From NCBI GenBank assembly GCA_009785595.1, contig WQVZ01000012.1:1-35708 (forward strand): a stretch of DNA of 35,708 nucleotides. The letters are read 5' to 3'. Positions 5,707-12,992 of this stretch are shown here, one piece after another; within the stretch, counting starts at the first letter, position 1; every line of letters begins with the position of its first letter. A model generated the notes under the pieces. It made no database searches, was not told where the DNA came from, and was given only the letters and a program-made list of their open reading frames with translations. This DNA comes from Defluviitaleaceae bacterium. Lineage in GTDB: Bacteria > Bacillota > Clostridia > Lachnospirales > WRAX01. A program made the translations under genes and the position numbers.

Positions 5707-5735
5707 TTGACATTTATCCCCAAAACACCTATAAT
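5707..5735 (+). promoter_or_regulatory. consensus sigma-A promoter for the Dlt-like cluster
   Basis: TTGACA (5707-5712) - 17 nt - TATAAT (5730-5735). Confidence 0.85.
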
Positions 5736-5778
5736 AATGATCAGGGGTGTGGACACACCCTATATTTGTGATGCGGAG

Positions 5779-7383
5779 ATGATATGCACCGTGCTTTTTA
5801 CTTCGTCGGTTTTCCTGTTGTTTTTGGCCACTTTGCTGGCGGTTTATAGCCTAGCCCCGCAAAAACACCGTTGGTTTGTGCTGCTGGTGGGCTCCATGGC
5901 TTTTTACGCCTATGCAGGGCCTATTTTCCTTATTTATATATGCACCACCATTATCGTTACGTATTTTTGCACCATGCGCATACGCCGCCTGTGGTTGTTG
6001 CGGGATGAATTTGCGGCGGCAACGGATGATAAAGAACAACGCAAGCAAAACAAGGCAAAAACTAAGGCCCTTACAAGGCGATGGCTTGTTGCTGCCCTGT
6101 TAATAAATTTAGGCATACTGGCCATGGTGAAATATACAGACTTTGCCATTGGCAATGTTAATGCCTTTATGGCACTGTTTGGGGCAGACAGGTCTTTTGG
6201 TTTTATGCGCTTTGCCCTGCCCATGGGTATTTCCTTTTACACCTTCCAAACCGTGGCATATCTTGTGGATGTGTACCGCGAGCGGACAAAGCCAGAGCGC
6301 AACCCGCTTAAATTTGCGCTGTTTGTTTCCTTTTTCCCACAAATTATCCAGGGCCCCATCAGCCGCTTTAGCGAGCTTTCCCAAACCCTGTACAGTGGCA
6401 CTCCCGTCACCGGCACAAACCTGTCCCGCGGCGGCCAGCGGGTGCTGTGGGGGTTTTTCAAAAAGCTGGTGGTGGCAGACCGTCTTTTTCCGGCCTTGCT
6501 GGTGCTTACAGGCACACCGGAGGAATTTACGGGGGCTTTTTATCTGCTAAGCATTGCCCTGTATGCCATCATACTCTTTTGCGACTTTACAGGCGGCATA
6601 GACATCACCATAGGCATTGCGGAGATGTTTGGCATACGCCTGCCGGAAAACTTTAACCGTCCGTTTTATTCCCGCTCTATACAAGAATACTGGCAACGCT
6701 GGCATATGACCATGTATGCATGGTTTAGGGATTATGTATTTTACCCCATGTCTGTCGGCAAAAATATGCTTAAATTTTCAAAGTTTACCCGCCGTGTTTT
6801 TGGTGATGGCTTGGGCAAGCGTCTGCCGGTACATGTGTCTCTTATATGGGTTTGGTTTTTGACGGGGCTTTGGCATGGTGCCACATGGAATTTTATTGCG
6901 TGGGGCTTGGCGAATGGCTTTGTCATTATGTTTTCTTTGGAGGCAGCACCCTTGTACGCTCGCTTTCACGGCCGTTTTCCAAAGGCAGCAGAATCCTATA
7001 TTTTCCGCGCCGGCCAAATTTTCCGCACTTTTTGGTTAATGAACATGATACGCTCTTTTGATATATACGACGGCGTGGGCAACACCTTCCGCATGATGGG
7101 TTCTATTGTAACGGACTTTGGCCTGGCCGATTTTTTAACCCGGGGCGTATCAGAGCTTACCCTGCCTGTGGCAGACTATGTCAGCGCTGCCATCGGGCTT
7201 TTGGCGATATTCTGGGTCAGCTACATGGGCCGCGGCGATGTTGATTTTCGTGACAGGTTGCGCACCAATTTCTCTTGGCCCGCCCGTTATGCGGTGTTTG
7301 GCTTGATACTTATTGCGGTGCTTATTTTTGGGGCATACGGCCATGGCTATGATGCCCGCCAGTTTATATACAATCAGTTTTAG
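5779..7383 (+). CDS. MBOAT family O-acyltransferase (DltB/AlgI-like)
   Basis: Multi-TM; FPQIIQGPISRFSEL, EYWQRWHMTMYAWFRDYVFYP, FLTGLWHGATWNFIAWG; listed ORF start 5701 overlaps the promoter so the true start is probably ATG 5779. Confidence 0.9.
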   Translation: MICTVLFTSSVFLLFLATLLAVYSLAPQKHRWFVLLVGSMAFYAYAGPIFLIYICTTIIVTYFCTMRIRRLWLLRDEFAAATDDKEQRKQNKAKTKALTRRWLVAALLINLGILAMVKYTDFAIGNVNAFMALFGADRSFGFMRFALPMGISFYTFQTVAYLVDVYRERTKPERNPLKFALFVSFFPQIIQGPISRFSELSQTLYSGTPVTGTNLSRGGQRVLWGFFKKLVVADRLFPALLVLTGTPEEFTGAFYLLSIALYAIILFCDFTGGIDITIGIAEMFGIRLPENFNRPFYSRSIQEYWQRWHMTMYAWFRDYVFYPMSVGKNMLKFSKFTRRVFGDGLGKRLPVHVSLIWVWFLTGLWHGATWNFIAWGLANGFVIMFSLEAAPLYARFHGRFPKAAESYIFRAGQIFRTFWLMNMIRSFDIYDGVGNTFRMMGSIVTDFGLADFLTRGVSELTLPVADYVSAAIGLLAIFWVSYMGRGDVDFRDRLRTNFSWPARYAVFGLILIAVLIFGAYGHGYDARQFIYNQF

Positions 7384-7392
7384 GAGGCTGCA

Positions 7393-8454
7393 ATGCGCAC
7401 TAAAATCTTTAAATACACCATTACCATACTTGTCTTTGCGCTGGTATTTCTTGCGGCGCAACGGCTTCTTGTGCCAAAATACGCCTACAGCATACTGGAG
7501 GGCGGCCTTATCCGCGAATGGTATACCACGTCAATGGATCAGGACGTAATATTTATAGGCGATTGCGAGGTTTACGCCAATTTCTCTCCTGTTAAGCTAT
7601 GGGAAGAATTCGGCATAACATCCGCCATACGTGGCAGCCCCCAGCAACTTATTTGGCAGTCATATTATCTGCTGGAAGAAACCCTGCGCCACCACACGCC
7701 GTCCGTTGTGGTGTTTAATGTGCTGGCCATGCAATATAACGAACCCCAAAACGAGGCCTACAACCGCCTTACCCTGGATGGTATGCGCATGTCGCCCTCT
7801 TGGTTTCGCTCTGTAATGGCATCACGGACAGAAGACGAGGATTTGCTGTCATACTTTCTGCCGTTTTTTAGGTACAAAGACCGCTGGCGTGATATTTCTG
7901 CCGAGGATTTTCGCTATTTCTTCCGCAACCCCCGTGTGTCCATCAACGGCTTTATGGTACGCAGTGATGTTGTACCCGCGGGCTGGATACCAGACCCCCT
8001 ACCCTTGGCAAATCCGCAATTTGGCGACAAGGCATATTACTACCTTAACCGAATGGTTCAGCTGTGTGCCGCCCACGATATACCCCTGGTGCTGATAAAG
8101 GCACCGTCGTTGTTTCCCTATTGGCACAGCCAGTGGAACGACCAGATTGTGGCCTTTGCCGAGAAAAATGACTTGCTTTACATTAACTTTTTAGAGTATA
8201 CTGATGATATTGGCTTGGATTTCTCCCTGCATACCTTTAACGCAGGCCTGCACCTAAATGTCTTTGGTGCGGAAAAACTGACTCAATTTTTCGGTGAAAT
8301 TTTGCAGGCAGAGTTTGACCTACCCGACCGGAGAAGCGAAACGGCCACAGCGGCTCGCTGGGCTGAAAAAAGTGCCTTGTATCATCGTATTATCGCAAGG
8401 CAGCTGGCAGAGATTGAGGAAACAGGACGTATACAGAGTTTTTTAATAGAGTAG
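7393..8454 (+). CDS. membrane-anchored SGNH-like (DltD/DHHW-like) protein paired with MBOAT
   Basis: N-terminal TM, block-I-like DVIFIGDCEVYANFSP, C-terminal LHLNVFGAEKLTQFF. Confidence 0.65.
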   Translation: MRTKIFKYTITILVFALVFLAAQRLLVPKYAYSILEGGLIREWYTTSMDQDVIFIGDCEVYANFSPVKLWEEFGITSAIRGSPQQLIWQSYYLLEETLRHHTPSVVVFNVLAMQYNEPQNEAYNRLTLDGMRMSPSWFRSVMASRTEDEDLLSYFLPFFRYKDRWRDISAEDFRYFFRNPRVSINGFMVRSDVVPAGWIPDPLPLANPQFGDKAYYYLNRMVQLCAAHDIPLVLIKAPSLFPYWHSQWNDQIVAFAEKNDLLYINFLEYTDDIGLDFSLHTFNAGLHLNVFGAEKLTQFFGEILQAEFDLPDRRSETATAARWAEKSALYHRIIARQLAEIEETGRIQSFLIE

Positions 8455-8476
8455 GGACGGCCGCCCCCGGCCGCCC
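8451..8476. repeat. short GTAGGGxCGGCCG...CGGCCGCCC palindrome
   Basis: gtagggacggccgcccccggccgccc; its TAG is the stop codon of the SGNH-like gene. Confidence 0.7.
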
Positions 8477-8500
8477 AACACAATGAGGTGAAAATCAATT

Positions 8501-9046
8501 ATGAAAAAACGGATCATACTAATCATTATTGCGGCTGCGGCAATCTTTGCCCTTGCGGCTTGCGGCGGCAATCAAGAGCCATCACAAATATCACCCGGCA
8601 ACCCTACCCCAACCCCCACTACGGCACCGGCGCAAGCCGGCACCCAGACCGGCTTTGCCTTTGCCATTAGCGGCCACACCATCCATATGGACGCAAATAT
8701 GGGCGATGTGTTGGACATGCTAGGCGAACCCCTTGGTATATTTGAGGCACCCAGCTGCGCCTTTGACGGCATCGACCGCATTTTCCAATTTCCCACCATA
8801 CAGATACACACATATCCTCTGGACGATCAAGATTTTGTCCACACCATCATGATACGCGATGACAGCGTGGCCACGGTTGGCGGTATTTTTTTGGGTAGCA
8901 GCTTTGATGACCTTATGGCCGCCTATGGTGATGGATATAGCCAGGAGGCGGGTATGTTTACCTTTACCCGCGGCCGCACAACCCTTTCTTTCTTGGTGGA
9001 AAATGACATGGTAGTATCCATATTGTACGGTTTGATTATGGATTAG
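8501..9046 (+). CDS. lipoprotein, function unknown
   Basis: MKKRIILIIIAAAAIFALAACGGN lipobox; same operon. Confidence 0.75.
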   Translation: MKKRIILIIIAAAAIFALAACGGNQEPSQISPGNPTPTPTTAPAQAGTQTGFAFAISGHTIHMDANMGDVLDMLGEPLGIFEAPSCAFDGIDRIFQFPTIQIHTYPLDDQDFVHTIMIRDDSVATVGGIFLGSSFDDLMAAYGDGYSQEAGMFTFTRGRTTLSFLVENDMVVSILYGLIMD

Positions 9047-9055
9047 GAGACATAC

Positions 9056-10522
9056 ATGCGCAAAAAATTTGCAATTTCTTTCGGCGTGACAATGCTTGTC
9101 GCCACGCTGGGCATTTTAGGCATATATACGCTGTTTTGGCCTTTTGGCCTTGGTTTTGATTATTCCGTAAAAAGCGTTATCACCGTAACGGGCCACAGAG
9201 TGGAAGCGGCGGCTTTTTTGGACACCGGCGAGGAAATGACCCATGTGTCGGCGCAATTTGCCAATCCGGAGCGTGTTGACTTTTCCGCACCCGGGCGGCA
9301 AACCGTGGCATTAACCCTAACCCGTGGCGAAAGAACACTGGACACCACAGCCGCTATGTATGTTTTAAATGCAGTAGAATATTTGCATTTTGAATTTGCG
9401 GATGCAACCAACATCCCGCCGACCGCCGAAGATTTCATCACAAATGCCCATATACTTGCCATGCCCGTCCAACCCGTTTTTCTGTCCGCTCTGCCCAATT
9501 TTGCAAACCTGGCGGTGGGCCGATATTACATAGATCTTCATGTTGCCGGGGTAATTTTTCGCTCCGCAATTAATGTGGCCGACACAACACCCCCGACAGC
9601 CACACCAGTAAACCGCACCATGACCATGGGACAGGATGTATTTGCCGAGGATTTTGTGGTTAATATACAAGATGCATCCCCCATCGGCTCCATCGGTTTT
9701 GTTAGCGAACCCGACATCTATGCTCCAGGCGAGCAAGTTGTAGAGGTCTATATAGAAGATATTTTTGGCAACAGGGCCGTGTTTACATCAACCCTTACCC
9801 TAAGACCAAATGAAATACCCCCCACAATCACCGGCGTACGCGACCTGGAAATTATGCGCGGCAACCCCATTATGTTCCGCCAGGGCGTAAGTGCCACAGA
9901 TGCCTTTGGCCGTGACCTGGAATTTACAGTAGACAGCAGTAGGGTGGACGCAAATGTGCTGGGTGCCCACACCGTTGTGTATATAGCCGAAGACTCACAG
10001 GGTCTGCGCACAGAAGTTACCGCCACCGTACACATTGTTGATGTTGACCCGGCGTGGATTAACCAAAGAACCGACGAAATTTTAGCGGGAATATTACGCG
10101 ACGGCATGACCCAGGTACAGCAAGCCCGCGCTATATTTGACTGGATAGGCCAAAACGTGGGTTATGCGGCGGATATTGGCCGCGAAACAGTGTATGAAGG
10201 CGCTTTTCAGGCCCTGACCCAACGGCGCGGCAACTGCTTTGTTTTTTACTCTATATCCGAAGTAATGCTCACCCGGGCCGGCATACCCAATATGCGCATA
10301 GACCGCATACCCGGCACCCGCACCAGACACAGATGGAATCTTGTTAATCCTGACGATATGGGCTGGTTTCATTTTGACACCACGCCAAACAGGGTAACAT
10401 TTAACCGCTTTATGTTCACAAACACCCAGGCGGTGGAATTTACAGAACTGATACAGCAAGAAGTTGGCACCAGATATTATTATGTATTTGACCCCACCCT
10501 GTATCCGGAGATTATAGAATGA
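9056..10522 (+). CDS. membrane-anchored/exported protein with Ig-like repeats and C-terminal transglutaminase-like domain
   Basis: N-terminal TM; Cys in RRGNCFVFYSISEVMLTRAGIP, His in TRHRWNLV, Asp in WFHFDTTP. Confidence 0.85.
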   Translation: MRKKFAISFGVTMLVATLGILGIYTLFWPFGLGFDYSVKSVITVTGHRVEAAAFLDTGEEMTHVSAQFANPERVDFSAPGRQTVALTLTRGERTLDTTAAMYVLNAVEYLHFEFADATNIPPTAEDFITNAHILAMPVQPVFLSALPNFANLAVGRYYIDLHVAGVIFRSAINVADTTPPTATPVNRTMTMGQDVFAEDFVVNIQDASPIGSIGFVSEPDIYAPGEQVVEVYIEDIFGNRAVFTSTLTLRPNEIPPTITGVRDLEIMRGNPIMFRQGVSATDAFGRDLEFTVDSSRVDANVLGAHTVVYIAEDSQGLRTEVTATVHIVDVDPAWINQRTDEILAGILRDGMTQVQQARAIFDWIGQNVGYAADIGRETVYEGAFQALTQRRGNCFVFYSISEVMLTRAGIPNMRIDRIPGTRTRHRWNLVNPDDMGWFHFDTTPNRVTFNRFMFTNTQAVEFTELIQQEVGTRYYYVFDPTLYPEIIE

Positions 10523-11211
10523 GCCGGCCACTGTTAGGCGTGTTGGGCGGCATGGGCGTGCAGGCCACGGGATATTTTTATGATATTTTAAACCGTATGC
10601 AGAACGTATCTAAAGAGCAAGATTATTTGGACGTGCTGGTATACAGCAAGCCATCCATTCCCGACCGCACCGCCTTTATAACCGGCCAAAGCACCGAAAG
10701 CCCATTGTCTTCGCTGTTGCATGGCATACGTCTGTTGGAGGCCGCAGGTGCGGGATGCATCGCCATACCTTGCGTCACTGCCCATTATTTTTATAAAGAA
10801 TTAGCCATGGCTGCGTCTGTACCTGTGCTTAATATACTGGAAGAAACCGCGCTGCATGCCGAAAAACTCGGCCATACAAAGGTAGGTCTGTTGGCAACAG
10901 ATGGCACCATGCACAGCCGTATTTTCCACAAGGCATTTGCCGCAAAAGACATTGAAATTATAGAACCCAGCCGCGATGAACAGGTTGCTGTCATGAAAAT
11001 TATTTACGATACAAAATGTGGGACAAATGTAGAGCCAGCCGCCCTGGCATATTTGGCAGAGAACCTGCACAACAGGGGTGCCCAGGGTGTGGTGCTGGGT
11101 TGCACAGAGCTGCCATTGGTATTTAAAGGGCAAAAACACGAATATATAGAGGCCATGGCGGTGCTGGCCGCGGCGGCGTTATGTAGGGGCGGCATTTTGC
11201 CGCCCGTTTAA
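10519..11211 (+). CDS. aspartate/glutamate racemase family protein
   Basis: LGVLGGMGVQATGYFYDIL; AIPCVTAHYF; GVVLGCTELPLVF; ATGA overlap with upstream gene. Confidence 0.88.
   Translation: MSRPLLGVLGGMGVQATGYFYDILNRMQNVSKEQDYLDVLVYSKPSIPDRTAFITGQSTESPLSSLLHGIRLLEAAGAGCIAIPCVTAHYFYKELAMAASVPVLNILEETALHAEKLGHTKVGLLATDGTMHSRIFHKAFAAKDIEIIEPSRDEQVAVMKIIYDTKCGTNVEPAALAYLAENLHNRGAQGVVLGCTELPLVFKGQKHEYIEAMAVLAAAALCRGGILPPV
11183..11206. repeat. short GTAGGGGCGGC...GCCGCCCG palindrome inside the 3' end of the racemase gene
   Basis: gtaggggcggcattttgccgcccg. Confidence 0.75.
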
Positions 11212-11228
11212 AAGGAGCGTGAAACACC

Positions 11229-12758
11229 ATGACCAATGTACTGCAATACCTGGAAAAAACCATGACACACATACCAAACCCTGATAAACCGGCATTTATT
11301 GGCGAAACCGGTAGCATGACTTTTCGCCAGCTTTACCATCAATCCCGAGCCATAGGTACTTTTTTGGCTGACAGGGGCGTACGCCAACAGCCCATTGCCG
11401 TGTTTATGGAAAAAAGCCCGGATATGATAGCTGCCTTTTTGGGTGTGGCATACGGCGGCAATTATTATGTACCCGTAGACGCCGAAATGCCGCCTGTGCG
11501 CATACAGCTTATTTTAGAGACCGTCAATCCCCCTTTGATAATTTGCGATGAAACCACACAGCCGCTGGTTGAGAAATGGGGCTTACCTTATGCTACCCAG
11601 CTATTTTCTGGCATAAACCAACACCCCATAAGCGACAACACCTTGGCGCAAATACGCGCCCAAGCCATAGACGCCGACCCTCTTTATGTGGTATTTACAT
11701 CAGGCTCCACGGGCATACCCAAAGGCGTCATTGCATGTCACCGCTCGGTTATTGATTATATTGACAGTCTGTCCGGTGTGTTACAAGTCGGCCCGGATAC
11801 TGTCTTTGGCAATCAGTCGCCTCTATATCTGGACGCCTGCCTAAAGGAGATTTACCCCACCTTAAAATACGGCGCATCTGCTTATCTTATACCAAAATCC
11901 CTGTTTATGTTCCCTGTGCGGCTGATAGAATACATCAACGACAACCGCATTAACACCATATGCTGGGTGGCTTCTGCGCTGGGCTTGGTGGCGGGTCTTG
12001 GGGCCTTGGACAAGTTTACACCCCACACCCTGCACACAGTGGCCTTTGGCAGCGAGGTCTTCCCAATAAAGCACTTTAACCGCTGGCGCGAAGCCCTGCC
12101 CCAGGCGCGTTTTATCCACCTGTATGGCCCAACAGAAGCCACAGGTATGTCCACATACTATGAGGCCGACCGCACCTTTGGCCCAGACGAAAGCATCCCT
12201 ATTGGCCAGCCATTTGTTAATACAGAAATTATTCTGCTGGACGACAATGATGCCCGGCCCCCCCAAGGAGAACCCGGCGAAATATGTATACGCGGAACCT
12301 GCCTAAGCCTAGGATACTTTGGCGACACCCAGCGCACCCAGGCCGCTTTTGTACAAAACCCCCTGTCACCTTTCCCGGACATTATATACAAAACCGGCGA
12401 TATGGGATATATCGGCCCGGATAGCCGGCTGTACTTCATAGCCCGCAAAGACCACCAAATAAAACACATGGGCCACCGCATAGAGCTTGCGGAGATAGAA
12501 TGGGTCGCCAGCCGCTGTAAAGACATACAAATGGCCTGCGCCGTCTTCGATAGCGACGCAAGCCGCATTATCCTATACTATATGCCCCAAAACGACGCCA
12601 CCAAAGCAGAAGTAATGACGGAGCTTAAAACCAATCTGCCCAGATATATGGTGCCCCACGCCATATTCCCCATAGAAAATCTGCCACTAACAGCTGGCGG
12701 CAAATTCGACCGTCTAAGCCTGTTGGAAAAATACCTGGAAAATAAGAAAGGAAAATAA
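11229..12758 (+). CDS. amino-acid adenylating enzyme (DltA/NRPS A-domain-like)
   Basis: VVFTSGSTGIPKGV, LYGPTEATGMSTYYE, GEICIRG, YKTGDMG, LPLTAGGKFDRLSL motifs. Confidence 0.9.
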   Translation: MTNVLQYLEKTMTHIPNPDKPAFIGETGSMTFRQLYHQSRAIGTFLADRGVRQQPIAVFMEKSPDMIAAFLGVAYGGNYYVPVDAEMPPVRIQLILETVNPPLIICDETTQPLVEKWGLPYATQLFSGINQHPISDNTLAQIRAQAIDADPLYVVFTSGSTGIPKGVIACHRSVIDYIDSLSGVLQVGPDTVFGNQSPLYLDACLKEIYPTLKYGASAYLIPKSLFMFPVRLIEYINDNRINTICWVASALGLVAGLGALDKFTPHTLHTVAFGSEVFPIKHFNRWREALPQARFIHLYGPTEATGMSTYYEADRTFGPDESIPIGQPFVNTEIILLDDNDARPPQGEPGEICIRGTCLSLGYFGDTQRTQAAFVQNPLSPFPDIIYKTGDMGYIGPDSRLYFIARKDHQIKHMGHRIELAEIEWVASRCKDIQMACAVFDSDASRIILYYMPQNDATKAEVMTELKTNLPRYMVPHAIFPIENLPLTAGGKFDRLSLLEKYLENKKGK

Positions 12759-12761
12759 AAC

Positions 12762-12992
12762 GTGGCTAATTTACTGGAAATTTTACAAGAAATGTACCCC
12801 GATGTAGACTTCGCAACCCACACAGCCCTAATCGACGACAAAGTCATAGACTCTTTTGACGTCATCACCCTTGTGGCAGAAATCAGCGACAGACTAGACG
12901 TAGCCATACCCGCCGAAGAACTTATTCCCGAAAACTTCAACTCCTATGCCGCCCTAAATGCCTTGGTAGATCGCTTGGAAGACGAAGCATAG
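12762..12992 (+). CDS. acyl/peptidyl carrier protein (DltC-like)
   Basis: 76 aa; LIDDKVIDSFDVITLVAEISDRLDVAIPAEEL with phosphopantetheine Ser; GTG start. Confidence 0.88.
   Translation: MANLLEILQEMYPDVDFATHTALIDDKVIDSFDVITLVAEISDRLDVAIPAEELIPENFNSYAALNALVDRLEDEA

Follow-up and report, generated by a model that had tools for sequence, protein, structure and literature searches.

Dlt D-alanylation sets the charge of the cell wall and the resistance to host peptides. In the transfer model put forward for Dlt, the acyl group is carried as an acyl-tyrosine and subsequently as an acyl-enzyme of the SGNH protein, the FxYxxF sequence being the acyl-shuttle motif of both DltX and PatA (PMC12148441). 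According to the same paper, the motif is fused in pathways that lack a carrier, the separate DltX belongs to the carrier-dependent pathway, and PatAB-type pairs use an acyl-CoA donor and no carrier protein (PMC12148441). At the loading step, the D-alanine pocket of the solved DltA is formed by Leu, Met and Cys residues (PMC8972799).

The stretch of DNA analysed here, referred to as the window, comprises positions 1 to 35,708 (35,708 nucleotides, forward strand) of contig WQVZ01000012.1 from a Defluviitaleaceae bacterium (GCA_009785595.1; genome 91% complete). It contains a seven-gene cluster that probably encodes a Dlt-like trans-membrane system passing an acidic, and probably D-, amino acid to an envelope acceptor by way of an acyl-tyrosine and then a thioester. 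The first-pass annotation considered the cluster a candidate undescribed system; a search of the open-access literature, outside which most subscription papers lie, turned up no published account, and novelty is provisional.

Architecture and recurrence of the seven-gene unit

Seven plus-strand open reading frames are packed into positions 5779-12992, separated by intergenic gaps of 9, 46, 9, -4, 17, and 3 nt, in the order MBOAT, SGNH protein, lipoprotein, Ig-transglutaminase, Asp-type racemase, adenylation enzyme, and carrier (Table 1). Both the single consensus promoter and the tight same-strand packing reported in the first-pass annotation were seen again, and its family assignments agree with Pfam and NCBIfam scans for all but the lipoprotein, the SGNH protein being settled by an AlphaFold model. 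The MBOAT start is most likely the ATG at 5779, position 5707 belonging to the promoter. Directly 3' of the promoter, a short hairpin, GGGGTGTGGACACACCCT, at 5744-5761 is a possible operator or 5' UTR element. In addition, a GC-rich palindromic element (TAGGGRCGG..CCGCCC; 0 in shuffles) occurs in two copies, at 8452-8476 and at 11184-11205, the latter providing the final codons of the racemase gene.

Table 1. Positions and diagnostic features of the promoter and the seven genes, in window coordinates
Feature	Position	Strand	Diagnostic features
Sigma-70-type promoter	5707..5735	+	TTGACA-17-TATAAT, 12/12 consensus matches
MBOAT acyltransferase, DltB-like	5779..7383	+	PF03062 2.6e-14; catalytic His codon 6874-6876
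MBOAT C-terminal acyl-shuttle motif FIYNQF	7363-7380	+	Tyr codon 7369-7371
Membrane-anchored SGNH-fold protein, DltD-like position	7393..8454	+	Motif GDC; Cys58 codon 7564-7566 at the nucleophile position
Lipoprotein, lipobox LAAC	8501..9046	+	Two-repeat alpha/beta fold; SCA motif Cys86, codon 8756-8758
Membrane-anchored Ig-like and transglutaminase-core protein	9056..10522	+	PF01841 5.2e-9; Cys394 (codon 10235-10237), His425, Asp441
Asp/Glu racemase, TIGR00035 type	10519..11211	+	Asp_Glu_race 4.8e-37; Cys85, Cys195, Arg50, Lys166 invariant
Free-standing amino-acid adenylation enzyme	11229..12758	+	AMP-binding 1.4e-64; pocket DAKCAGLGMK; Lys239-equivalent is residue 206, codon 11844-11846
Carrier protein	12762..12992	+	PF00550 (PP-binding) 1.6e-4; phosphopantetheine Ser31 in DSFD, codon 12852-12854

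A search of species genomes with the adenylation enzyme yielded 80 loci, using query peptides that include no pocket positions, so that the conservation of the pocket Lys239 described below does not stem from selection by the search. The same seven families are clustered in Oscillospiraceae, Lachnospiraceae, Clostridiaceae, and others, and this recurrence in several clostridial families argues against a chance assembly of the operon. The synteny across Clostridia that the first-pass annotation proposed to look for is therefore present, in permuted order: the commonest arrangement elsewhere, transglutaminase-racemase-adenylation enzyme-carrier-MBOAT-SGNH protein-lipoprotein, is a cyclic permutation of that of the window, which is itself also found in termite-gut relatives. 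Among the 47 loci displaying the two commonest pocket codes of the clade, a transglutaminase gene lies near the adenylation gene in 43 and a racemase gene in 36, companions whose absence from relatives the first-pass annotation would have counted against its proposal. The racemase, transglutaminase, and lipoprotein are confined to loci with the DAK pocket, none of the 28 loci with other (sister) codes having any of the three. Clustering of all other reading frames near the loci disclosed no further gene family consistently adjacent to the unit, and a conserved extra neighbour that would name the acceptor polymer was dropped from consideration. As a separate observation, three termite Lachnospiraceae loci (L040, L052, and L056) display an orphan adenylation gene with the code DAKCNGLGMK and neither carrier nor MBOAT nearby; its neighbours in L040 and L052 include a gene encoding about 450 aa, which in one copy shows a weak match to FliD_C.

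The predicted transfer proteins and their putative extracellular partners

The window MBOAT ends in FIYNQF, fitting FxYxxF, and both its catalytic His and its shuttle Tyr are conserved in 68 homologues; with the adjoining SGNH gene, these are the hallmarks of an MBOAT-SGNH acyl shuttle. No separate DltX microprotein with a shuttle motif was found in the cluster, which, as read from its sequence, combines a carrier with an MBOAT-fused shuttle motif. The SGNH protein is weak by sequence (GDSL_2, 0.013). Its AlphaFold model (pLDDT 91) settles the assignment at the level of predicted structure, the top PDB matches being SGNH enzymes, including DltD (6pfx) and PatB; the nucleophile position is occupied by Cys, whereas DltD carries a catalytic Ser. 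This Ser-to-Cys replacement, within a GDC motif, is found in 42 of the 44 aligned members; the other two are loci with the DAIR code. Every SGNH protein of the clade examined has the Cys, and the DSKD and DVKI systems have Ser. When 288 sampled genomes of the class were searched with an SGNH family profile, about 35 (about one in eight), gut and rumen Clostridia included, contained a strong match; GDC is present in all 20 loci fetched from these matches, and in most of them the short stretch examined also contains the SCA motif of the lipoprotein and an MBOAT whose C terminus reads FIY[NS]QF. The first-pass annotation mentions neither the SGNH Cys nor the fusion of the FxYxxF shuttle to the MBOAT, which are the most distinctive traits of the cluster. 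In the termite clade the Asp of the SGNH motif DTYDxGLH is lost, with the His replaced by Asp in L007, L009, and L011 and the Cys retained; given these losses, activity may differ between members.

No Pfam family was found for the lipoprotein, whose fold weakly resembles DUF4309 (YjgB) and YfeY (fold match E 0.004) and in which the Cys86 of the SCA motif is invariant in the alignment. The transglutaminase-core domain PF01841 scores 36.8 versus a cut-off of 23, with a sub-threshold Ig-like match, and the triad Cys394/His425/Asp441 is conserved, the Cys in 50 of 52 sequences. The transglutaminase-core fold is also found in peptidases. Extra transglutaminase-like paralogues devoid of the catalytic Cys occur at L008:3-1508 and L015:2-1372.

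The adenylation pocket, the racemase, and the predicted cargo

Where the first-pass annotation called for a specificity prediction, the ten pocket positions read DAKCAGLGMK instead of a plain D-alanine pocket, compared with DLMVLCTV[AC]K in DltA-like proteins of the same class. Eight of the ten residues differ, among them the Leu236, Met239, and Cys301 of DltA, replaced by Ala, Lys, and Gly, respectively, a divergence consistent with the earlier suggestion that the cargo may be other than D-alanine. Lys239 is present in 57 of 57 rows of a single clade (SH-aLRT 100) separate from DltA, and the adenylation enzymes of the sister Dlt-like clusters fall in the same larger clade. Glutamate-activating NRPS domains (DAKDLGVVDK) also have Lys239, paired with the side-chain acid; published Glu/Asp NRPS codes were not found in the open-access literature. 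The invariant Lys239 points to an acidic side chain on the predicted cargo, with aspartate and glutamate fitting alike. D-specificity would not be deducible from the pocket alone, Gly301 replacing the Cys that makes DltA choose D-alanine. The partner carrier has its Ser31 invariant in 75 aligned sequences.

The racemase scores 191.6 with TIGR00035 (cut-off 93.1) and barely exceeds the cut-off of the cysteate-racemase (CuyB) model (192.5 versus 190), the closest solved relatives being aspartate racemases (1jfl, 3s7z). The two catalytic Cys residues are invariant, and Arg50 and Lys166 are presumably those that bind the side-chain carboxylate in aspartate racemase structures. In 96% of bootstrap trees, the cluster racemases fall into a single group. 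A separate MurI is encoded in the same genome, so that the cluster racemase is not needed for peptidoglycan and its assignment as a MurI-type enzyme was rejected; since MurI supplies D-glutamate anyway, a dedicated racemase suggests that D-aspartate fits somewhat better than D-glutamate. Within the window's family, racemase matches occur in three of the five genomes with the transglutaminase gene and in none of the remaining 11. Some operons lack the gene, which excludes the racemase as an absolute requirement: of eight such genomes checked, two contain no racemase, one contains a broken fragment, four encode a different racemase elsewhere, and in one a cluster-type racemase (PCIT) sits next to a GDC SGNH gene on another contig.

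These exceptions bear on the alternative that survives best, although it is unlikely, namely that the cargo is an L acidic amino acid, or that the racemase serves another pool (e.g., cysteate), runs in reverse, or regulates supply. Gly or Ala at position 301 would be compatible with L substrates, and the narrow CuyB score and the incomplete distribution of the racemase speak for it; on the other hand, all 33 cluster racemases match TIGR00035, their best solved relatives act on aspartate, and racemase presence tracks the pocket.

An ordinary, divergent Dlt that transfers D-alanine onto lipoteichoic acid, with the racemase and transglutaminase as bystanders, is improbable. The four core functions are shared, and the check for separate canonical dlt genes, suggested by the first-pass annotation, found no DltA and no other MBOAT elsewhere in the 91%-complete genome. 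The genome also encodes a sulfatase resembling LtaS, whose 47.8 bits fall far short of the strict LtaS cut-off (970), together with three LCP proteins, so that teichoic-like acceptor polymers are possible for the system. Against this reading, the residues of the D-alanine pocket are replaced, the racemase and transglutaminase are conserved exactly with the new pocket, and every Dlt model falls far under its cut-off: (i) the DltA equivalog TIGR01734 (250 bits versus 559.85), (ii) the DltB equivalog TIGR04091 (149 versus 375), and (iii) the DltC equivalogs (29.2 versus 68 and 19.1 versus 52.35). A canonical Dlt carrying D-alanine was rejected on the pocket residues and these scores; across 116 sampled genomes of the class, no DltA exceeded the curated cut-off. 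Least probable is the reading in which the adenylation enzyme and carrier form a minimal non-ribosomal synthetase and the cluster yields a small aminoacyl compound or peptide for secretion instead of an envelope modification. It is favored by the adenylation enzyme scoring 313.7 with the NRPS adenylation-domain model versus 250-261 with the DltA models and by its best PDB matches being NRPS proteins, but is opposed by the lack of a condensation or thioesterase domain and by the pairing of an FxYxxF MBOAT with an SGNH partner, a known envelope-acylation signature (PMC12148441).

Proposed pathway and relation to described systems

The favored reading, the relay of an acidic amino acid to the envelope, would proceed in successive steps. 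The racemase, a member of the family by its residues, would make a D-amino acid, aspartate being likelier than glutamate or a related acid. The adenylation enzyme would then activate the alpha-carboxyl, its Asp235 binding the amino group and its Lys239 the acid of the side chain, and, as its fold and residues suggest, load the phosphopantetheine arm on carrier Ser31. By homology to DltX and PatA, the MBOAT would move the aminoacyl group through the membrane onto the Tyr of its own FIYNQF, from which SGNH Cys58 may accept it as a thioester, replacing the usual Ser ester, and hand it on to a putative envelope acceptor. Such a thioester would permit an amine acceptor, giving an amide, as well as a hydroxyl. 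Outside the cell, the lipoprotein and the transglutaminase could be acceptor-binding, finishing, or cross-linking partners. A fuller version is tentative: D-aspartate or D-glutamate, relayed from carrier to MBOAT Tyr to SGNH Cys thioester, becomes amide-linked to an envelope amine, and the transglutaminase then processes or cross-links the product.

No Dlt-like system with an acidic, zwitterion-forming amino acid as predicted cargo was found in the open-access literature. If the proposal is correct, the cluster would, to our knowledge, be the first case of Cys use by an SGNH transferase in a pathway of this type and of a shuttle fused to a carrier-dependent MBOAT. Together, these two features provide a natural system for testing the acyl-Tyr mechanism, in which a thioester intermediate could be trapped directly.

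Among related clostridial loci, L058:10496-11284 and other Anaerotignum-type loci (DSKD code, Ser SGNH) carry a GNAT acetyltransferase gene between the adenylation enzyme and the carrier, and L080:10514-11377 (code DVKIMSLCNK) has a formyltransferase-like gene at the equivalent place, hinting at an N-formylated cargo. These sister clusters point to a broader group of related systems that differ in cargo. The sister Dlt-like clusters with DSKD, DVKI, and DAIR codes share with the window the adenylation enzyme, the carrier, an MBOAT with an FxYxxF-like ending, and the SGNH protein, but display a Ser nucleophile (GSS/GTS), other tailoring enzymes, and no racemase, transglutaminase, or lipoprotein. 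The cluster racemases, in turn, keep the two catalytic Cys, Arg50, and Lys166 of the aspartate racemase family (TIGR00035) but have PC[V/I/A/M]T where that family has PCNT and form a branch of their own, linked to the cluster.

Compared with PatA/PatB and other O-acetylation pairs, the window cluster likewise comprises an MBOAT with its own C-terminal FxYxxF and an SGNH partner, but in addition encodes an aminoacyl-loading enzyme and a carrier with Ser31 in the same operon. Compared with Dlt (DltABCD and DltX), it preserves an adenylation enzyme, a separate carrier, an MBOAT, and an SGNH protein, but differs in the DAKCAGLGMK pocket, the MBOAT-fused shuttle, the SGNH Cys, and the added racemase, lipoprotein, and transglutaminase. 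The cluster lies outside canonical Dlt by every model tested and, judging from its conserved residues, would work in the manner of the MBOAT-SGNH acyl-shuttle systems.
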